DNA from: an uncultured Muribaculaceae bacterium
GTDB lineage: Bacteria; Bacteroidota; Bacteroidia; Bacteroidales; Muribaculaceae
Reading direction: 5' to 3'
NCBI GenBank assembly: GCA_949742535.1
Contig: CATJQX010000171.1
Location: forward strand, 1-39,492
Length of the DNA stretch: 39,492 bases
This document shows positions 9,268-20,163 of this stretch, one piece after another. The number at the start of each line of letters is the position of its first letter. The stretch's first letter is position 1. Under the pieces are notes generated by a model, which saw only the letters and a list, made by a program, of their open reading frames with translations, searched no databases and was not told where the DNA came from. The position numbers were made by a program, and so were the translations under genes.

Positions 9268-10152
9268 TTATATGCGCTCCACATCGGAGGCTTTTATCCA
9301 GGCACGCTCATGCCCTACCTTCACCTCATACCAGGCGCCGTCGGCAGTTCCGCTCACCGAGTCCACAATCTCCACTTTCGTGCCTTCATGCAGCAGAAAC
9401 GCTTCCTCGGACTGAGTGCGAGCCTCACGGGGAGAGGTCGACAGCTGCGCGGCAGGCGAAAGGATTATGGCGAAATCATTGTTGTCTACACGGTTGGCCG
9501 CGGCAAACGATACTATCACAGCTCCGGCACACAGGAAAAACACTATTATTCCACCGAAGAAGCTCACCTTTTTTACCATGACCACCGACGAAAACAGGTA
9601 CGTACAGGCACCTGCGAGAAAGATCGCGAACAGAATCACGGCTATCCAAGCCCACGTGTCGGCCTTGAAAAAGCCTATTATACTGTCAGACAAAGTTGTC
9701 ATTATTGAGCCACTGTCAATCTGCTTGTCGGTTATTTTTGTCCTTACAAACTCCAGATTGACACGAGCATCTGTCATCGTCGGGTCTATCTTCAGCGCGC
9801 GCTCGTAATTCACCAGTGCCATACCGAGATTTCCCTGACGGTAATAGGCATTGCCGAGATTGTAGAACAGAGGCGCTGATGTCCCCTCCGCAGCCATAGC
9901 CGCCTTATAAAGTTGCTCGGCAAGGGTGAAATTATCAGCCGAATAAGCCGAATCTGCCCTCGCGGCAAGCGCTTCGCCATTCATCTCCTCATGCGCCGCA
10001 TTGACAAGATCCTCATCAGAGTTTACAGTATCCCCCGATACGGCGGCCTCTGTATTCTGCTCTGCCTCCACGGCATTCTGCGCGGGTGCGGCAACGGGCA
10101 CACAGAGCAGACACGCAGACAAAGCTATTATAGAATATATCCTTCTTATCAT
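9268..10152 (-). CDS. batE: BatE-like TPR and SH3-domain protein
   Basis: Signal peptide, TPR (APLFYNLGNAYYRQGNLGMALVNYERALKIDP), TM segments, C-terminal SH3-like GTKVEIVDSVSG...ERAWIKASDVERI; position in bat operon. Confidence 0.85.
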   Translation of the reverse strand: MIRRIYSIIALSACLLCVPVAAPAQNAVEAEQNTEAAVSGDTVNSDEDLVNAAHEEMNGEALAARADSAYSADNFTLAEQLYKAAMAAEGTSAPLFYNLGNAYYRQGNLGMALVNYERALKIDPTMTDARVNLEFVRTKITDKQIDSGSIMTTLSDSIIGFFKADTWAWIAVILFAIFLAGACTYLFSSVVMVKKVSFFGGIIVFFLCAGAVIVSFAAANRVDNNDFAIILSPAAQLSTSPREARTQSEEAFLLHEGTKVEIVDSVSGTADGAWYEVKVGHERAWIKASDVERI

Positions 10153-10192
10153 GATGTCAGTATCTTATGTTTTTGAGGGTGCTTAATAATTT

Positions 10193-12031
10193 TCATGACT
10201 TACTTACGATACGGCTCTTTTCCATCGCGTTTATGGCATCGGTAGCCTCGTTGTAAAGAGCTTCCACCGAAGAATCGAGCGATGAATCGGGAGTGTAACG
10301 TGCCATTTCGCAATCATCCAGTATTTTTATCACCTTGTCTGATACTTCGGAAGCCACACCTCGCTGCGACAGGGTGTCCACGATGTTCTGACGTGTCAGT
10401 TGCGAAGCCGGCATGTTGAGCTTGTCGCTCAGATAACCCCACATGGCCTTGAGCATCTCCTCATAGAACTGCTCGCTCTTATGGGCATGCATGAATTTCT
10501 CGGCAGCCTTGAGACGTTTGCGCGCCACTTTGTTCGCTCTGGAAGTGCGTCGGCCCACCACATCGGCCTCAAGTTTCATATGCCGTCCATAAGCCCATGT
10601 AGCCGTGATCATCACTATCAGAAGCACTCCGAAGATGCTCCAGTACCACCAGAACCGCACAATGGGAGTATGGTCTTTGCTCAGATTCTTTTTGCCGAGT
10701 TTGATATGGAGTATATCCAGATTTTTTGCCTCGATGTCGCGTTGGTCCACAGAGGCGGTCGTACCCGATCCTTTGGCGACTTTGAGCGTGTATCCAGGAG
10801 CTGTAAGCGTTACGTACTCTTTCTTTGCGATGTCGAAATAACTGAATTCCTGAGCCGGAATCTTGAACTCGCCCACACTCTGCGGCACAATTGTATATTC
10901 CGCCGTGACTGTGCCGGTCATTGTGTTGCCGGTCACGCGGCTGTTCTCCTCCGTTTTGGGCGTATACTGTTCGAACTCGTTGGGGATAACCGGTTTCGGA
11001 GCTTTAAGGTATTTGATATTACCCGTACCGGTAATGATATACTCCAGAGATGCGGCCTCCCCGGTGCGGAGTTCTGTGGAGCTCATGCGGCTCTCGAACT
11101 TGAACTGTCCCACAGCACCGGAGAAACTTGCGGGGGCTGGCTGCGGCAGCGGCGAAATCTCTATGGTCTGGCTGAATGGCTGAAGCTGTACCGACTTCTC
11201 TACCGGACGCGCCGAAATGAAGAAACCGTTCGACACACGCTCGAGCTGCACCACACTCAGGTCATATTTACCTGAATTGATGGTCAGCTTGCCCGATTTC
11301 TGGGGATAGATGATGCATTTTTTCAGCACGGCCGTGATATAGTTCTGGCCGTTGTAATGCTCCACCTCGTTAAGCGACGCCTGTGTATCGATCTCTTCGA
11401 TAAGGAAGCCGTCGTATGTAGGAGGAGAGGTGACCATAAAGGAGTTGATGCGCTCAAATTTGGTGTAAAGTTTCAGAGTGCACTCTATCGCCTCCCCCTC
11501 GTAGGCATGGCTCTTGTTGAGGAGCACACGCACGAAAATGTCATTCTTGCCTATAGCGGCATTGTCCTGCGTGGATGGATCGTCGATCGTGGGTGCCGGA
11601 TAGCCGAAGCCACCACCCTGCTGCTGTTGCCTTCCGGCATTGCGGTCAGGCGGAAGCACCTTGAACTGTGTCTGCTTTGTCTGGTAGGTCTTGCCGTTTG
11701 CCTGTATTGAGGCCACCGGTATGGTATAGGTACCCTCCTTCTCGGCACGGTAAGTGTATGTGTAATCCTCTGTAGTGCTTGAGGTCTGGTGTCCGTTGAT
11801 AATCTCCACAGACTGCATCGTGCTCACACCCGGGCGCTGGCTCAGCAACTTGCAGCCAGCCACTGCCGGAGCGCTCAGCCCGCTGCCGGAGCCGTTGGTC
11901 AGACGGTAAGTCACATAAAAGGTATTGCCGGCAATCACATTGCGGGGCGGAACCACCTGAAACGAAGTCTGGGCCCAAAGTCCCGACACCGTCGCAATAA
12001 CCACACCCAATGTCAATAACAGCTTTTTCAT
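10193..12031 (-). CDS. batD: BatD family protein
   Basis: MKKLLLTLGVVIATVSGLWAQTSFQVVPPRNVIAGNTFYVTYRLTNGSG...; oxygen-tolerance BatD type; start placed at the signal peptide Met. Confidence 0.9.
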   Translation of the reverse strand: MKKLLLTLGVVIATVSGLWAQTSFQVVPPRNVIAGNTFYVTYRLTNGSGSGLSAPAVAGCKLLSQRPGVSTMQSVEIINGHQTSSTTEDYTYTYRAEKEGTYTIPVASIQANGKTYQTKQTQFKVLPPDRNAGRQQQQGGGFGYPAPTIDDPSTQDNAAIGKNDIFVRVLLNKSHAYEGEAIECTLKLYTKFERINSFMVTSPPTYDGFLIEEIDTQASLNEVEHYNGQNYITAVLKKCIIYPQKSGKLTINSGKYDLSVVQLERVSNGFFISARPVEKSVQLQPFSQTIEISPLPQPAPASFSGAVGQFKFESRMSSTELRTGEAASLEYIITGTGNIKYLKAPKPVIPNEFEQYTPKTEENSRVTGNTMTGTVTAEYTIVPQSVGEFKIPAQEFSYFDIAKKEYVTLTAPGYTLKVAKGSGTTASVDQRDIEAKNLDILHIKLGKKNLSKDHTPIVRFWWYWSIFGVLLIVMITATWAYGRHMKLEADVVGRRTSRANKVARKRLKAAEKFMHAHKSEQFYEEMLKAMWGYLSDKLNMPASQLTRQNIVDTLSQRGVASEVSDKVIKILDDCEMARYTPDSSLDSSVEALYNEATDAINAMEKSRIVSKS

Positions 12032-12095
12032 ATGTCTGTTGAAATATGTAGTCAAAATCACTTTTACCTGTCAGTTTTAATTAATACGTGAGGCA

Positions 12096-12953
12096 TCACC
12101 ACGGTTTGGCGGTGGTACGGCGGTTGGCACGCTTCTCTTCGTTCTGCTTCATCAGCTCCACTTTCTGACGCGTGCCGTTCTCCTTATCCTCCATCGCTTT
12201 CAGGATCTGTTGCGCGCTTGCGTCGCTCAGACCACCTTGCTGCTGCTTCTGCTCCTGGTCTTTTTTGTCCTGGTTCTGATCCTGCTTGTCCTGCTGGTTT
12301 TCCTGTTCGTCTTTATTCTTGTCCTGATCCTGGTTCTGATCCTGATTCTGGTCCTGGTTCTGATTTTTGTCCTGATTCTGATCCTGGTTTTGATCCTGGT
12401 TCTGCTTGTCGTCCTGGTTCTGATCCTGGTTTTGCTGATCCTGTTCCTGTTTTTTCAGTTGGGCCAGACGCAGGTTCTCACGTGCCTGATTGTTCTCGGG
12501 ATTGCGGCGCAGGGCGTTTTTATACATCTCGATCGCTGATGCATAATCTTCGGCCTTGTATGCCACGTTGCCGCGGTCGTAGAACGACGGCTCCGCCAGA
12601 TTCTGATCCTGTGCCAGACGTGCCAGCATCGCATCAGCGGTGCGCACAAGCGAATCTTCCTTGTTTGTCAGATCCTCCCCACGCTGTTTCAGATAGGAGG
12701 AAGCGAGATTGAACTGGGCCACCGCATTGTCTGGATTCTCTTCAAGTGCCTTCTTATATGCTACTTCCGCCTCGGCATACCGTTTGTCGCCATACAGCTT
12801 GTTGCCCTCCTTTATCGAATTTCGCTCACGTTTAGTCGACACCACCGGAGCGGTATCCTTCTCGGAATCGTCGCTGCATGATGACAGCACGTTTACGGAT
12901 GTCGCCGCAAGCGCCATATTGAGTAATATGCAGATAAACTTGTTCATTGTCAA
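12096..12953 (-). CDS. batC: BatC-like TPR protein with Gln/Asp/Asn/Lys-rich low-complexity tail
   Basis: Lipoprotein-like N-terminus (NVLSSCSDD), TPR units, (DQNQ)n low-complexity region; between batB and batD. Confidence 0.85.
   Translation of the reverse strand: MTMNKFICILLNMALAATSVNVLSSCSDDSEKDTAPVVSTKRERNSIKEGNKLYGDKRYAEAEVAYKKALEENPDNAVAQFNLASSYLKQRGEDLTNKEDSLVRTADAMLARLAQDQNLAEPSFYDRGNVAYKAEDYASAIEMYKNALRRNPENNQARENLRLAQLKKQEQDQQNQDQNQDDKQNQDQNQDQNQDKNQNQDQNQDQNQDQDKNKDEQENQQDKQDQNQDKKDQEQKQQQGGLSDASAQQILKAMEDKENGTRQKVELMKQNEEKRANRRTTAKPW
12235..12460. repeat. Degenerate coding repeat encoding DQNQ/DKNQ units
   Basis: Reiterated TCCTGGTTCTGATCCTGG-type units within batC. Confidence 0.9.
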
Positions 12954-12964
12954 AAGGGATTTGG

Positions 12965-14005
12965 TTACTTTTCAGACCGGTGGAAGAAAGTGAAGCGTTT
13001 GAGCCATCCTATCTTGCGCGGCATCACGAATGCGTCGATCACAAGCAGTATCACGGCTATCCACACGAAAACCGGGAACTGTTCGGCGCTCGCCTTGTAT
13101 GTCACATGCTGCAGGTCGCTCTTCTTTATCTGGTCGAGGCTCTCCACAAGCTGATCCACGGCTTTCGCGCCGCTGCCGTTGATATATACGCCACCGCCTG
13201 CCGAGGCTATCTCCTTTGCCATACTCTCGTTGAGGTAAGTGGTAACGGGAGCTCCGGAATCGTCTTTCAGGAACTCCCCGCGTTTTCCGTCAAGAGGTAT
13301 GGGAGCGCCTTTCAGCGATCCGATGCCTATCACATCCACCTCTATGCCGAGTCCCTCGGCATATTTGGCCATCTCAAGGGCATCCCCCTCATGGTTCTCA
13401 CCGTCTGTTATCACTATTATCGCCTTGTTGATCTCCTCGTCGGGCGAAAACGAGTGGATACACATGTTAATGGCGGTGCCGATGGCTGTGCCCTGTGTGG
13501 GCACCATATCAGTCGATATCTCGTCGAGATACATCCTTGCCGAAAGGAAATCGGTAGTGATGGGAAGCTGTGTATACGCTTCACCCGCAAAGACGATAAG
13601 CCCCACCTTGTCGTTGTCGAGTTTGTCGATCAGGCGGTTGAGAATATACTTGGCGCGTTGCAGGCGCGATACTCCGTTGGGATCGTCCGTAGCGGATGCG
13701 AGCATCGAGCGCGACACGTCGAAAGCTATCATCACCTCTATGCCGGAAGTGTTTTCCACCTCCTCCTTCTCCCCTGCCCGGGGCCTTGCCACAGCCACGA
13801 TCAGAGCCGCCAGTGCCAGAAGTTCCAGCGTGATCTTCACTGCGGGCATGTACTTCGATGCCTCAGGCATAAGATGCTGCAGATGCTCGGGCTGTCCGTA
13901 GCGGCGCAGCTTTGCCCGCCGGGCCATACGTGCCCAGAACCACAGGCCGAATACCACCGGCACAAGCAACAGCAGATAAAGCAGATATGGATATGCAAAC
14001 GTCAT
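12965..14005 (-). CDS. batB: VWA-domain protein BatB
   Basis: IEVMIAFDVSRSMLA (MIDAS DxSxS), TPTQ/TQGTAIGTAI, ITDGENHEGD. Confidence 0.92.
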   Translation of the reverse strand: MTFAYPYLLYLLLLVPVVFGLWFWARMARRAKLRRYGQPEHLQHLMPEASKYMPAVKITLELLALAALIVAVARPRAGEKEEVENTSGIEVMIAFDVSRSMLASATDDPNGVSRLQRAKYILNRLIDKLDNDKVGLIVFAGEAYTQLPITTDFLSARMYLDEISTDMVPTQGTAIGTAINMCIHSFSPDEEINKAIIVITDGENHEGDALEMAKYAEGLGIEVDVIGIGSLKGAPIPLDGKRGEFLKDDSGAPVTTYLNESMAKEIASAGGGVYINGSGAKAVDQLVESLDQIKKSDLQHVTYKASAEQFPVFVWIAVILLVIDAFVMPRKIGWLKRFTFFHRSEK

Positions 14006-14017
14006 TGTTTCAAATTC

Positions 14018-14129
14018 TAAGTAACTGGTCGAAATAATTTTAATGTTTGTTCAAAAAACTCAAAAATTTTACTGAAGAAACATTGAAATAATCTGACCAA
14101 TATATAACATAATTTTGAACAGTTACTTA
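14018..14129. mobile_element. MITE-like inverted-repeat element between batA and batB
   Basis: Terminal inverted repeats TAAGTAACTG (14018-14027) / CAGTTACTTA (14120-14129), arms remain similar further in (CTGGTCGAAATAATTTTA vs CTGTTCAAAATTATGTTA); TA at both ends; AT-rich, noncoding. Confidence 0.5.
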
Positions 14130-14172
14130 ATAGTCCGTTTTTCAGAGATTTTGTTCCACACGCGCATCACCG

Positions 14173-15162
14173 TCATGGAATAGTGCGCAACCATGTGTGT
14201 CGGAGTACAATCTCGAGCAGGAACAGACCCAGTGCGGCAAGCGCCCACGGCAGATAGTTGTCCTCGGTATGGGAGAAATTGCGCACATCAAGCTCGGTCT
14301 TCTCAAGTTTGTCTATTTCGTCGAATATCTCACTCAGCACCTTGTTGTTGGTGGCCCTGAAATATTTGCCGCCGGTGATGGAGGCTATCTGTTTCAGCGT
14401 CTCCTCGTCGATAACCACAGGGGTAGGCACATACTCGATGCGGCCGAACATGTTTACCTGCGGGTAGGGAGCAGTGCCGTTGGTACCCACACCTATGGTA
14501 TACACCTTTATACCCATCTTGTGGGCTATCTCGGCTGCGGTGAGAGGAGCCACGATACCGGTATTGTTGGAGCCGTCGGTAAGCAGGATTATACTCTTGC
14601 TCTTTGCCTTGCCGTCTTTTATGCGGTTTATTGAAGTGGCCAGGCCGTCGCCGATGGCGGTACCGTCCTCAAGCATCTCGCGGCTGAGAGCGGTCACATA
14701 GTTGGTGAGCGCGGCGCGGTCTGTTGTCATCGGTACACCAGTGAAAGCCTCCCCGGCAAATACCACCAGACCCATGTTGTCGCTCTCGCGGCCATTGATA
14801 AATCTCGACGCGATCTTCTTTGCCGCCTCCAGACGGTCCGGTTTGAAGTCGCGTGCGAGCATACTCGACGATATGTCGAGCGCAAGCACCATGTCGGTTC
14901 CCTCGGTGTGCGACTTCTGCCAGGCATCGCGGGTCTGCGGACGGGCGAGAACCACTATCAGACACCCTATCGCCAGAAGCCGTAACGCAAACAGGAGATG
15001 CTGCATATACTGCTTCACCGGGCGCTTGAGCCGGGCGAACGGACGCACTGTAGATACTTCGAGCGCGGCATGTGCGCTACGGTGTTTCCATACATACCAT
15101 GCGATCATCGGTACATACAGCAAAAACAGCCATAACACGCCTGGATGTGCCAAATGAATCAT
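14173..15162 (-). CDS. batA: VWA-domain protein BatA
   Basis: DMVLALDISSSMLARDFKPDRLEAAKKIASRFI, LLTDGSNNTG, C-terminal TM. Confidence 0.92.
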   Translation of the reverse strand: MIHLAHPGVLWLFLLYVPMIAWYVWKHRSAHAALEVSTVRPFARLKRPVKQYMQHLLFALRLLAIGCLIVVLARPQTRDAWQKSHTEGTDMVLALDISSSMLARDFKPDRLEAAKKIASRFINGRESDNMGLVVFAGEAFTGVPMTTDRAALTNYVTALSREMLEDGTAIGDGLATSINRIKDGKAKSKSIILLTDGSNNTGIVAPLTAAEIAHKMGIKVYTIGVGTNGTAPYPQVNMFGRIEYVPTPVVIDEETLKQIASITGGKYFRATNNKVLSEIFDEIDKLEKTELDVRNFSHTEDNYLPWALAALGLFLLEIVLRHTWLRTIP

Positions 15163-16175
15163 TTCTTATCCTTTCCTTTTAAGGGTTCCACCTCTGCTCC
15201 GGCATCTTCAGTATTCGCTGAATCCTCAGGCAACTCTGCAGGTTTCGTATCCTCCACAAACTGGAGGGCATCCTGCCAGGAGCGCACATTGTCGTCGGGC
15301 ATAGGGCGCACTTTCGCGAATTTCACATAATCGGCTATCTCCACTACCCTCTCCATATATTTCTGGGGAAGGCGCGTCTCCTCGTTGGAGCGGAGAGCCT
15401 TGAGAATCTGTGAGGAGGTCATCTCCATGGCGTTTATTCCGAAACGCTCCTGCAGATACTCCCTCAGGATATCTATCAGACGGGTATAATATTCCTTCTC
15501 CTGACCTTTCTCCCACAGCTGTGCCTCTTTCAGCTCGTTCAGGCGGCTGAAAGCGATCTGGTCAGGCGGCAGACGTTTCTTCTGCGGAAGGATGTTGACG
15601 GTCACCTTCTTGGTGAAGATCAGATAGCCGCATATTCCGCCCGCTATTATCAGCAACGCCAGAAGATACCACACCCAGTATTCTGTGAGCCAGTCGGGGA
15701 GCCAGTCATACCACTTGCTGTGGAAATCAGCCACAGATGCAAGCGGATTTATATCCGACATGGCGCTCACATCCACCGGGTTCACCTTCAGTGTCAAAGC
15801 CTTTGAGCGCACGGTGTCGGGACCGTTCACAAGCAGAAACGGAGGGATGGTGTACACCCCCGAATCAAACGGCTGCACCACAAGAGCGCGTTTCATCTCC
15901 ACCATCCCGTTGCCCAGGTCGGTTGTATCACCATACACCCAGTCCACGATCTCCACCTCCGGGGGAAACACAGCCTTGTCCACGACAAGCTGCGACGGAG
16001 ATGCGGCCTTATCCACTATTTCGACCTTGATGGCCGTGCGGTAGCCCATCGTTATCTGGCTTGAATCGATCGCCGCGGTAACTGACGGACGCACTGCGGC
16101 GCTTCCGTCGAACGCGCTGCAGCCGATGGAGGAAGCCAGCAACATGGCGTATATGTAGGGTCTGGAAATTCTCAT
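15159..16175 (-). CDS. Bat operon membrane protein (BatD-like N-terminus, single TM)
   Basis: Signal peptide, beta-rich N-terminal half, TM (WVWYLLALLIIAGGICGYLIF), helical C-terminus; overlaps batA start by 4 bp. Confidence 0.8.
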   Translation of the reverse strand: MRISRPYIYAMLLASSIGCSAFDGSAAVRPSVTAAIDSSQITMGYRTAIKVEIVDKAASPSQLVVDKAVFPPEVEIVDWVYGDTTDLGNGMVEMKRALVVQPFDSGVYTIPPFLLVNGPDTVRSKALTLKVNPVDVSAMSDINPLASVADFHSKWYDWLPDWLTEYWVWYLLALLIIAGGICGYLIFTKKVTVNILPQKKRLPPDQIAFSRLNELKEAQLWEKGQEKEYYTRLIDILREYLQERFGINAMEMTSSQILKALRSNEETRLPQKYMERVVEIADYVKFAKVRPMPDDNVRSWQDALQFVEDTKPAELPEDSANTEDAGAEVEPLKGKDKK

Positions 16176-16213
16176 GTCTTTATATCTTCTTTGTATGATA
16201 TACTCACTTCCCG

Positions 16214-17083
16214 CTATCCGCGGCGTTTGAACAGCCCCATCAGAGCCGCCACATAATCCTCGTCAGTAGCCACCGACGCGATATTGACACCGCACCGCTT
16301 GAGCGTGTCGCTCATAATCTGCTGACGCTCATACCACCAGCGGCCATACTCGTTGCGCACCTTTTTGGAGGACGTGTCCACCCACATCTCGCGGCCGGTC
16401 TCAAGATCGGCCACACGCATCAGCCCTACGTCGGGCAACTGCGCGTCGCGCTTGTCATAGACCTGTATTCCGTAAACATCGTGCTTGTTCGACGCGATGG
16501 AGAGAGCCTTGTAATAATCCTTGTCGTCGATAAAGTCCGAAATCAGGAAAGTGGTGCACCGTTTCTTCAGCGCATCCGAGAAATATTTAAGCACCATTCC
16601 GATATCGGTTCCGCGGCTCTCGGGAGTGAAGTCTATCAGCTCGCGGATTATGAAGAGGATATGTTTACGCCCCTTTTTGGGAGGTATGAATTTCTCTATT
16701 TTATCCGAGAAGAATATCACGCCGATCTTGTCGTTGTTCTGGATCGCCGAAAAAGCGAGCGTGGCGGCTATCTCCGCTATCATCTCGCGTTTCTCCTCAC
16801 CTACGGCGCCGAAAAGACGGGAACCGCTCACATCCACCAGAAGCATCACCGTAAGCTCGCGTTCCTCCTCATACACCTTGATATATGGATGGTTATGTCG
16901 GGCGGTGACATTCCAGTCGATGTCGCGTATGTCGTCGCCATACTGATATTCACGCACTTCAGAAAATGTCATGCCTCGGCCTTTGAAAGCCGAGTGATAT
17001 TCACCCGCGAATATGTTCTGCGAAAGTCCGCGGGTTTTTATCTCTATGCGTCTTACTTTTTTAAGCAGTTCGTTTGCGTCCAT
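16214..17083 (-). CDS. DUF58 domain-containing protein
   Basis: FKGRGMTFSEVREYQYGDDIRDIDWNVTARHNHPYIKVYEEERELTVMLLVDVSGS. Confidence 0.95.
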   Translation of the reverse strand: MDANELLKKVRRIEIKTRGLSQNIFAGEYHSAFKGRGMTFSEVREYQYGDDIRDIDWNVTARHNHPYIKVYEEERELTVMLLVDVSGSRLFGAVGEEKREMIAEIAATLAFSAIQNNDKIGVIFFSDKIEKFIPPKKGRKHILFIIRELIDFTPESRGTDIGMVLKYFSDALKKRCTTFLISDFIDDKDYYKALSIASNKHDVYGIQVYDKRDAQLPDVGLMRVADLETGREMWVDTSSKKVRNEYGRWWYERQQIMSDTLKRCGVNIASVATDEDYVAALMGLFKRRG

Positions 17084-17153
17084 CAGCGGTTATAATTGTG
17101 CTTGGCGTCGGATTTATGCCTTTGGTATAATTCTGAACATTTGATTATGTTAC

Positions 17154-17182
17154 GGCGGCGGGCATCACAGACGACCGCCGCC
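17154..17182. other. GC-rich hairpin between moxR and the DUF58 gene
   Basis: GGCGGCGG (17154-17161) / CCGCCGCC (17175-17182); T run only on the + side. Confidence 0.6.
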
Positions 17183-17210
17183 TTTTTTCACAGGCCGGGA
17201 CAACTATGCG

Positions 17211-18206
17211 TCAGGGCACCTCCACCTTGTCGAGAATCTCAGATATGATCTCGTCGGCGGTGATATTGTTGGCCTCTGCCTCGTAAGTCAGACCGATACG
17301 GTGACGCAGCACATCGTGGCATACGGCACGCACATCCTCCGGAATCACATATCCGCGCTGATGCAGGAATGCATAGGAACGCGCCGCACGGGCCAGTGAG
17401 ATTGAGGCACGTGGAGAGGCACCGAAAGAAATTATGCTGCCGAGATCCTTGAGACCATATTCAGCCGGCACACGTGTCGCAAACACGATGTCCACGATAT
17501 AGCGCTCGATCTTTTCGTCGATATATATCTTCTCCACGATCTTCTGCACTTCCAGTATTTCCTGGGGCTTGAGCAGAGGAGTCACGGTCTTTTTCTCGTT
17601 GGTGATATTCTGTCTGATAATGAGTTTCTCCTCCTCGCGTGAAGGATAGCCGATCACCACTTTCAGCAGGAAACGGTCAACCTGCGCTTCGGGCAGAGGG
17701 TAAGTGCCCTCCTGCTCTATGGGGTTCTGGGTTGCCATTACCAGGAAAGGCTCGTCAAGCGGAAATGTATGGTCGCCGATAGTCACCTGACGCTCCTGCA
17801 TGGCTTCGAGCAGAGCCGACTGCACTTTGGCTGGAGCACGGTTGATCTCGTCGGCCAGAACGAAATTTGCGAAAATAGGACCTTTTTTCACCTGGAACTG
17901 CTCCGATTTCACGCTGTACACCATCGTACCGAGAACGTCGGCAGGGAGAAGGTCGGGGGTAAACTGTATGCGGCTGTACTTGGCGTCTATCAGCTGCGAC
18001 AGAGTCTTGATGGCCAAAGTTTTGGCAAGACCGGGCACACCTTCCAGAAGCACATGACCGTTTGACAGTAACGCGATCAGCAGAGACTCCACAAGGTGTT
18101 TCTGCCCCACGATTGTCTGATCCATGCCCCGCGTGATGAGATTGACAAAATCATTTTTGCTCGCCACGAGGTCGTTAAGCTCGCGGATATTTACCGTTTC
18201 ACTCAT
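17211..18206 (-). CDS. MoxR family AAA+ ATPase
   Basis: HVLLEGVPGLAKT Walker A, ADEINRAPAKVQSALLEAMQERQVTIG Walker B/MoxR signature, VMATQNPIEQEGTYPLPEAQVDRFL. Confidence 0.97.
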   Translation of the reverse strand: MSETVNIRELNDLVASKNDFVNLITRGMDQTIVGQKHLVESLLIALLSNGHVLLEGVPGLAKTLAIKTLSQLIDAKYSRIQFTPDLLPADVLGTMVYSVKSEQFQVKKGPIFANFVLADEINRAPAKVQSALLEAMQERQVTIGDHTFPLDEPFLVMATQNPIEQEGTYPLPEAQVDRFLLKVVIGYPSREEEKLIIRQNITNEKKTVTPLLKPQEILEVQKIVEKIYIDEKIERYIVDIVFATRVPAEYGLKDLGSIISFGASPRASISLARAARSYAFLHQRGYVIPEDVRAVCHDVLRHRIGLTYEAEANNITADEIISEILDKVEVP

Positions 18207-18402
18207 AATTATTTATCAGTTAGTCTTTTTATTTTCTATTTGACTTTCCCCTCACCCTATGGGCGGCATATGCGCGCCAACGCTATCTGCGGATATTGCA
18301 CATATTCACAACCCGAGTGCAAAAATATAAAATTATAGCCCCAGAATGTGAAACGGGAATGTTAATTTTTTCTTAATTGAGTTTAGCTCTATTAAGAAAT
18401 AA

Positions 18403-19671
18403 TCAATTTTTGGAATAACGGCTCATAATCTCAGCGGCCTTGCGTTCGGCGGCCTCCTCGCTGGCTCTGTCACCCGGCTTTATGCCGTATTTGGAGGCGG
18501 GAGGGATCACAACGGTTGTCATCGGGGGTATCAGATCGGGATCGCCGAGCTTGTCGATGTTTTCCATATAGATATAAACCCAGAATTTTTTCTTCCCGTA
18601 ATGTTTCTGTGCCATCGTAGTAAGAAAACGCCCCGCACGCACCGTATCGGTAACAACACCGGGTGTCGCCACCGAAGCTTCCGGAATTTCGGGAACCGTT
18701 TTTTCCGCAACAGCAGCGCGGGGTTCGGGATCAGTTTTTATCAGCGTGGAATCCACCTCTGTGGGTTCGGCTTTGGCCTCAGGAACATCACTCGCCGCAT
18801 GATATACCTGTACATCCTCCGCTGATATGTTAACACTTTTCACCGCACTTAAGTTTAACCTGTCATATGCGAAAAATCCGATGAGCAGTCCTGCCATCAG
18901 AGCCAGAAACGCGGTAAGCACTATGTTCATTGTATGGTGGTTGTTTTCAACCACCCTTTCCTTTTCTATCACACGCTCGTAGGTAACAGCAGGTGCCTCC
19001 CGGCGCTGTTCGGCGATTTTCTCGTTAAGGGATCTGGGAACCTGACGCACACCTGCGCGTGACCGGGATGCCTGCCGCGAAGGCCCATGAACTGGAGCAG
19101 GCTCCGGTTGAGGCGTCTCCTCCACAACTGTATCTTCCACAACCGTTTCCCTGACAGGTGTATCTGTTACGTGGCGTGCCTCCTCGCTTTCCTCTGTCTG
19201 AGGCTCATCATCGGCAGTATTACCAACTTCAGAGGCATCCACGTCAGATGGTTCCTCGTCCACTTCAGATGGTTCCTCGTCCACTTCAGACGGCACAGCC
19301 ACGTCGGCCGGCGCCTCATCGCGCTTTGCCGCCGTCAACGGTGCCATCACCGAAGTCTCCGCCTCCTCGGCGGCAGCCTCAAGCATATCCTCGGTCACCT
19401 CATCGTCAAGCTCCACCGGCTCGAACATCGAGAACGGGAGGTTCACAGCCTCGGCGAGCGACGGGTCAGGACCGAATTCCACCGTCACTGTCCCCCCGGC
19501 CTCAATCTTCCGGAAAACACCTATACCTTTCACCTCACAGAAACCCTGGTCGGCGAGTGCGGCACCAACAAGATCCGCAAAATCCACAAGAAACGCTCTT
19601 GCAAGATCCTCGCTGCACCCGTTTATTTTTGTCAGCTGTGCCACTATCACGGGCAATGGAAGTATACTCAT
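18403..19671 (-). CDS. HU-fold / transmembrane / LysM protein (422 aa)
   Basis: N-terminal HU-like domain (VIVAQLTKINGCSEDLARAFLVDFADLVGAALADQGFCEVKGIGVFRKI), acidic linker, one TM (MNIVLTAFLALMAGLLIGFFAY), C-terminal LysM-like VRAGRFLTTMAQKHYGKKKFWVYIYMENIDKLGDPDLIPPMTTVVIP. Confidence 0.8.
   Translation of the reverse strand: MSILPLPVIVAQLTKINGCSEDLARAFLVDFADLVGAALADQGFCEVKGIGVFRKIEAGGTVTVEFGPDPSLAEAVNLPFSMFEPVELDDEVTEDMLEAAAEEAETSVMAPLTAAKRDEAPADVAVPSEVDEEPSEVDEEPSDVDASEVGNTADDEPQTEESEEARHVTDTPVRETVVEDTVVEETPQPEPAPVHGPSRQASRSRAGVRQVPRSLNEKIAEQRREAPAVTYERVIEKERVVENNHHTMNIVLTAFLALMAGLLIGFFAYDRLNLSAVKSVNISAEDVQVYHAASDVPEAKAEPTEVDSTLIKTDPEPRAAVAEKTVPEIPEASVATPGVVTDTVRAGRFLTTMAQKHYGKKKFWVYIYMENIDKLGDPDLIPPMTTVVIPPASKYGIKPGDRASEEAAERKAAEIMSRYSKN
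19244..19291. repeat. 21-bp coding tandem repeat (EVDEEPS units)
   Basis: TCAGATGGTTCCTCGTCCACT repeated exactly at 19244-19264 and 19265-19285, plus a partial third copy. Confidence 0.95.
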
Positions 19672-19952
19672 TTCTGCCCCCCTTTCATTCTTTTCTTCAA
19701 CATTCCTCCCGCGGCGAACCTCACCTCTATCGAGGGGGGAAGCAGCATCCGTTTGCCTGTGACAAGATCAGTCGTTATCTCCTCGTCATGCTTGACACCC
19801 TCGAAAGTCCCGAAACCCGGGATCGCCACACGGTTCTCCTCACCACACTGTTCGCGGAGTATCATGCTGAATCCCTCGAGCAGTCTTGCCGCAGTGGCGG
19901 CATCACAACCGAGCTTCTGGGCAAGAGCGCCGGCAAAGTTTCTGTTATCCAT
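19668..19952 (-). CDS. HU/IHF-family DNA-binding protein
   Basis: DNRNFAGALAQKLGCDAATAARLLEGFSMILREQCGEENRVAIPGFGTFEGVK...SIEVRFAAGGMLKKRMKG; 4-bp stop/start overlap with the downstream HU-TM-LysM gene. Confidence 0.88.
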   Translation of the reverse strand: MDNRNFAGALAQKLGCDAATAARLLEGFSMILREQCGEENRVAIPGFGTFEGVKHDEEITTDLVTGKRMLLPPSIEVRFAAGGMLKKRMKGGQK

Positions 19953-19956
19953 GGCC

Positions 19957-20163
19957 TTATTTATGATTTTTTGTTTTCCCTTTCTTTTTCAGGTCACAAT
20001 CAATGGTGCATCCGGCACAACCACATCCGCACGACGGACCGTTTCCTTCTTTCAATCCCTTGCGGAACTGCAACACTTTCCTCACTATGACAACCACGGC
20101 TATCACTATGACAGCCACTACCGTTGCCCATTGTATCAGATCATTGAAACTCATATCCATCAT
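19957..20163 (-). CDS. Small Cys-rich single-TM protein (FeoB-associated Cys-rich type)
   Basis: TM (ATVVAVIVIAVVVIV) then CGCGCAGCTIDC. Confidence 0.7.
   Translation of the reverse strand: MMDMSFNDLIQWATVVAVIVIAVVVIVRKVLQFRKGLKEGNGPSCGCGCAGCTIDCDLKKKGKTKNHK

Follow-up and report, generated by a model that had tools for sequence, protein, structure and literature searches.

Why should one bacterial protein join an HU-like domain to a transmembrane (TM) helix and a LysM module? The question was raised by a gene in a 39,492-nucleotide contig of an uncultured Muribaculaceae bacterium, and this whole stretch is referred to here as the window. The initial annotation of the gene had proposed that its product tethers the nucleoid to peptidoglycan. 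We call this product HU2 and its partner, introduced below, HU1, and we examined the domains, neighbours and relatives of both across Bacteroidota. The features on which the argument depends are collected in Table 1.

Table 1. Features of the HU1-HU2 locus, its neighbourhood and the related protein encoded in the same genome
Feature	Position	Strand	Residues, size or basis
HU2: HU, acidic linker, TM, LysM protein	18403..19671	-	422-aa ORF
HU fold with short arm (14 residues between arm borders)	19432..19671	-	residues 1-80; AlphaFold, Foldseek, alignment
Post-HU motif PFxxFEPVEL (conserved) and extra helix	19351..19431	-	residues 81-107
Acidic cytoplasmic linker, predicted disordered	18934..19350	-	residues 108-246
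Single TM helix, G261 nearly invariant	18859..18933	-	residues 247-271; alignment, AlphaFold
Periplasmic spacer, disordered	18655..18858	-	residues 272-339; AlphaFold
LysM domain	18502..18654	-	residues 340-390; profile, AlphaFold
C-terminal helix	18412..18468	-	residues 402-420; AlphaFold
A+T-rich hairpin at HU2 end	18362..18406	-	fold of 18300-18425 (-), z -3.15
HU1: HU protein	19668..19952	-	94 aa; Pfam Bac_DNA_binding E 5e-13
MoxR AAA ATPase, first gene of downstream bat-type operon	17211..18206	-	conserved neighbour
bat-type operon: MoxR, DUF58, BatD/BatA/BatB-like, TPR	9268-18206	-	beside the pair
CCDC81-type protein (own-genome contig C77)	L032:547-1683	-	TM and SPOR-like C-terminus read from sequence

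HU2 carries an HU domain and a LysM domain joined by a membrane helix

Homologues of HU2 were found in 103 of the 119 genomes of the window's family and in 87 of the 91 good ones, a near-universal presence of the kind expected for a housekeeping role. Single-sequence searches with HU2 were uninformative, since Pfam returned no match at E<=10 and NCBIfam only LysM matches below threshold, and a family profile was therefore required. The domain calls were based on a profile built from a 45-member family alignment (profile A1), used together with structure prediction.

Against the PDB, profile A1 matched HU/IHF proteins over its first 80 positions, with best E-values of 4.8e-11 to 1e-7 (scIHF, 4.8e-11; T. 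maritima HU, 2.1e-9), and 36 of the 45 family members matched PF00216 at E<=0.01, the HU2 of the window itself giving no match. In the AlphaFold model of HU2, two domains of high confidence and a TM helix are connected by disordered stretches. The first domain, at residues about 6-107 (pLDDT mostly 89-97), was aligned by Foldseek to the HU structures 1b8z and 1riy with TM-scores of 0.85 and 0.83 of target length and an rmsd of 1.8 A. The second corresponds to LysM: profile A1 matched the potassium-binding protein Kbp near the end of the alignment (E 8.7e-8), the domain was modelled with pLDDT of about 95-98 in the expected order strand-helix-helix-strand, and this segment is the best-conserved part of HU2 outside the HU domain in the 45-member alignment. 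Residues 101-245, which span most of the linker, contain 15 K/R against 38 D/E.

For the topology, we counted K/R residues around the TM helix in 71 homologues: 56 have more of them on the N-terminal side, 3 have more on the C-terminal side and 12 are tied, and in the HU2 of the window the margin is a narrow 3 to 2. By the positive-inside rule, the HU domain should thus be cytoplasmic and the LysM domain periplasmic. The anatomy of HU2 is secure, and it is the one described in the initial annotation, in which an HU-like N-terminal domain is followed by a long acidic linker, then by a single TM helix and, at the C-terminus, by a LysM-like module. The structure prediction named there as a check on the HU and LysM calls modelled both folds confidently, and the cytoplasmic N-terminus deduced from Arg/Lys residues before the helix agrees with the count over homologues.

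HU2 is encoded together with a second HU protein

HU1 lies directly upstream of HU2, the stop of the former and the start of the latter share 4 nt (ATGA), and the two genes are a translationally coupled pair. Almost all of the complete loci that we examined have HU1 adjoining HU2, both in Bacteroidales and in a distant family from another class of Bacteroidota (f129), and in two Bacteroidales loci of other families (L116 and L126) both proteins are encoded in one reading frame that keeps the linker, the TM helix and the LysM domain. Profile-profile comparison aligned HU1 with HU2 at E 2.8e-15. The structure model of HU1 alone fitted HU loosely (TM-score about 0.45, pTM 0.37), probably owing to the absent dimer partner; its clear assignment as an HU protein comes from sequence. 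PADLOC gave no defence match for either HU1 or HU2.

Because HU proteins are dimers, an HU1-HU2 heterodimer is the simplest reading of this arrangement. HU1 is coupled to HU2, conserved beside it and fused to it in two genomes, and the cytoplasmic head is therefore probably an HU1-HU2 heterodimer. The alternative offered in the initial annotation, in which proteins are the binding partners of the HU domain, was in this respect at least partly right, with HU1 as the likely first partner. That annotation had overlooked HU1 as a coupled partner, and also the absence of a long beta-arm in HU2 and the sister loci without LysM that are described below.

Two further ORFs were noted. At L123:1770-2321 (+), an HU1/HU2 fusion appears as a 183-aa ORF without a TM helix; the match contains an internal stop, so that the gene may be broken or split. 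Just upstream of HU1 in the window, a 68-aa ORF (19957-20163, minus strand) encodes a TM helix with a cysteine-rich tail behind it, an arrangement that resembles the small FeoB-associated Cys-rich membrane proteins, and it is possibly co-transcribed with the pair.

The DNA-gripping arms have degenerated in the window's clade

We next compared the beta-arms of both subunits, with arm length taken as the number of residues between two arm borders, counted by alignment columns. The arm of the window's HU2 has 14 residues against 30 in a full arm, and residues 1-95 of the protein carry a net charge of -12. HU1 of the window (pI 8.7) keeps the 30-residue length, with DL replacing the NP tip and an arm net charge of -2. 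A DNA-binding beta-arm with basic residues and a tip proline was thus found in neither protein. A full HU2 arm of 30 residues is present in the other Bacteroidales families and in f129. HU1 has a basic [NH]P arm in those Bacteroidales, whereas its tip in f129 is NP or SP, and the best match of these arm-bearing HU2 relatives to Bac_DNA_binding is at E 4.9e-26. Within the window's family, most members, the window's own pair among them, have HU2 arms of 10-22 residues and an HU1 that lacks the [NH]P tip and has lost most of its positive charge.

The two arms vary together. Of 18 Bacteroidales pairs whose HU2 arm is long, 17 carry [NH]P in HU1, and of 33 whose HU2 arm is short, 0 do (Fisher p 1.2e-12, a value inflated by relatedness), and we used a tree of the neighbouring MoxR instead. 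On this tree each arm trait changes three times, with 2-3 independent pairs, all concordant and not significant; in this test HU1 was scored by eye for the two fused loci. One locus (L040), whose frame runs through a disrupted end, was left out of the analysis. A locus outside the tree (L121) is concordant for the tip, yet its HU1 arm is still basic.

Since the arms of HU are described as needed for DNA binding (PMC5683647) and are absent or degenerate in the window pair, HU-style direct DNA binding by this pair and its clade appears doubtful. Some members keep intact arms in both subunits, which suggests an ancestral DNA grip, and DNA binding is the likely ancestral state of the pair. These data bear directly on the nucleoid-to-peptidoglycan tether of the initial annotation, in which non-specific DNA binding would be a property of the HU1-HU2 head itself and the LysM domain would anchor this head to the wall. 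We consider this reading unlikely for the window: the HU fold of both subunits, the length of the HU1 arm and the pI of HU1 are consistent with it, as are the 30-residue, mostly NP-tipped arms of both subunits in other families and f129 and the close match of their HU2 to Bac_DNA_binding, but the acidic HU2 has no full arm, the HU1 arm is net negative without its NP tip, and these are the parts that HU is described as requiring. The anatomy permits a two-sided tether and the arm-bearing relatives fit it well, but in the window HU2 is acidic and armless and the basic, proline-tipped character of the HU1 arm is gone; a DNA-to-wall tether is possible but unproven.

Part of this group may have been seen before. 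HU_bacL, the Bacteroidetes HU proteins with long charged C-termini, have a mean extension of 238 residues with 19 K, 9 R, 13 D and 31 E (PMC5683647), and the long-arm HU2 members have one of 300 residues with 21 K, 9 R, 20 D and 39 E. Extension length and charge are thus alike, the text of PMC5683647 naming neither a TM helix nor LysM. Judged by these two properties, HU_bacL may already include the arm-bearing HU2 members, an identity that is unproven, and the armless members probably fall outside the alignment of that study.

The membrane anchor is constant and the LysM domain is variable

In eight sister loci (L039 and L041-L047) the HU domain, the acidic linker and a glycine-rich TM helix are kept and LysM is missing. 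HU2 stops there soon after the TM helix, leaving a tail of 0-39 residues, and HU1 and the MoxR synteny are kept; on the MoxR tree, the loss of LysM amounts to two changes. Membrane anchoring of the HU pair is thus the constant part and LysM the variable part, and wall contact cannot be essential everywhere. The wall half of the proposed tether keeps its LysM fold in the HU2 of the window but lacks it in these eight loci.

Assuming that it behaves as others of the LysM family, the domain of HU2 plausibly binds peptidoglycan, as does the LysM of FimV, another LysM-TM-acidic protein (PMC12918733). The nearest solved LysM by sequence is nevertheless that of Kbp, a protein named for potassium binding, and this match and the LysM-less loci would both fit a LysM that serves as a spacer or as a protein- or ion-binding module, leaving HU2 as a membrane-anchored, HU-derived scaffold without wall contact. 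The conservation of the LysM segment, the precedent of FimV and the presence of SPOR at the equivalent position in the parallel CCDC81-type family argue against this explanation, which we hold to be quite unlikely.

The pair is a counterpart of CCDC81-type HU-HU-TM-SPOR proteins

The same genome encodes a 378-aa protein that matches HU-CCDC81_bac_1 and HU-CCDC81_bac_2 (PF18174/PF18175) above the cut-offs, and proteins of this type occur in 110 of the 119 family genomes. When 14 members of this type from the family were searched, Pfam recognised SPOR in 7, and the copy of the window's genome was not among these. The two types share a phylum, occur within one genome and have the same order: two HU domains (HU1 corresponding to bac_1 and HU2 to bac_2), then a TM helix, then a wall-end domain. 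Profile alignment matched HU1 to the first HU domain of the CCDC81 type (E 1.5e-7) and HU2 to the second (E 1.5e-6), the HU2 alignment extending into the region of the conserved post-HU motif. HU1 of the LysM pair passes the PF18174 cut-off in five sister genomes, and the window pair scores below the CCDC81 Pfam cut-offs (HU1, 13.3 bits against 26; HU2, 12.3 against 35). The CCDC81 type has a SPOR end and one gene, whereas the window pair has a LysM end, a longer acidic linker and two genes, and no SPOR domain was found in the HU2 of the window, where the profile and AlphaFold place LysM at the C-terminus. From these sequence comparisons, the LysM pair is best seen as a sister, or LysM counterpart, of the CCDC81-type protein. 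Denuded peptidoglycan is the generally accepted ligand of SPOR domains. The CCDC81-type clade was reportedly described by Burroughs et al. in 2017 (Cell Cycle), with a predicted role in chromosome partition.

The SPOR type is itself split in two further families of this phylum, into a 66-68-aa HU protein and an HU-TM-SPOR protein (L130:1735-3051 (+), L132, L139 and L140), and thereby mirrors the LysM pairs that are fused.

Two further systems invite comparison. The polar landmark proteins HubP and FimV resemble HU2 in having a periplasmic LysM, a single TM helix and, in the cytoplasm, a long acidic part, but their LysM is N-terminal, so that the order is opposite, and they carry a TPR/FimV domain where HU2 has HU; an N-terminal LysM with a C-terminal FimV/TPR domain was not found in the AlphaFold model of HU2. 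HubP/FimV is an analogue of HU2 and no relative, and HubP reaches the chromosome indirectly, via ParA1 (PMC8789113). HU and IHF share the fold, and a heterodimer is likely here as in IHF, but the HU2 of the window is acidic, membrane-anchored and without a DNA arm. Our literature search found no LysM-HU protein and no nucleoid-wall tether of Bacteroidetes.

The pair lies beside a MoxR/bat operon

In the majority of complete loci from Bacteroidales, several other families included, MoxR and DUF58 genes lie downstream of the pair, and a functional link between the HU pair and the bat system is possible. This neighbourhood would suit a role of the pair as an adaptor for the adjacent MoxR/bat envelope-stress or chaperone system, with no part in the chromosome. 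We find that role improbable, as MoxR is absent beside the pair in several loci of other families and in all f129 loci examined, and a hairpin and promoter-like sites stand between the two units. The hairpin at the HU2 end is a possible transcript end and, because it (z -3.15) and the promoter-like sites lie there, the sequence suggests that HU1-HU2 and MoxR/bat are separate transcripts.

A proposed envelope-anchored HU platform

The explanation that we favour, with a probability of about 0.62, is that HU1 and HU2 form a two-subunit, envelope-anchored HU platform whose arms are degenerate in the window's clade and whose contact with the nucleoid is weak or partner-mediated. In this model, the products of the overlapping genes would assemble in the cytoplasm into an HU/IHF-type heterodimer, which the acidic linker and the N-in TM helix of HU2 would keep at the inner membrane and which the periplasmic LysM domain may fix to peptidoglycan. 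The ancestral head probably gripped DNA, both arms degenerating later in the window's clade, where the head most likely touches the nucleoid weakly or via a protein partner; the proposed role would be chromosome positioning or envelope organisation. A broader extension, which we offer tentatively and regard as rather doubtful, is that envelope-anchored HU heterodimers, whose LysM and SPOR types can share a genome, physically link nucleoid and wall throughout Bacteroidota, and that the LysM type switched in one clade from a DNA grip to a protein-partner grip.

Little is known about how Bacteroidota position the chromosome with respect to the envelope, and a nearly universal paired HU module that is anchored to the membrane and wall is a concrete and testable candidate. 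The natural variants with and without the arms, and with and without LysM, are ready-made mutants for asking which half matters.
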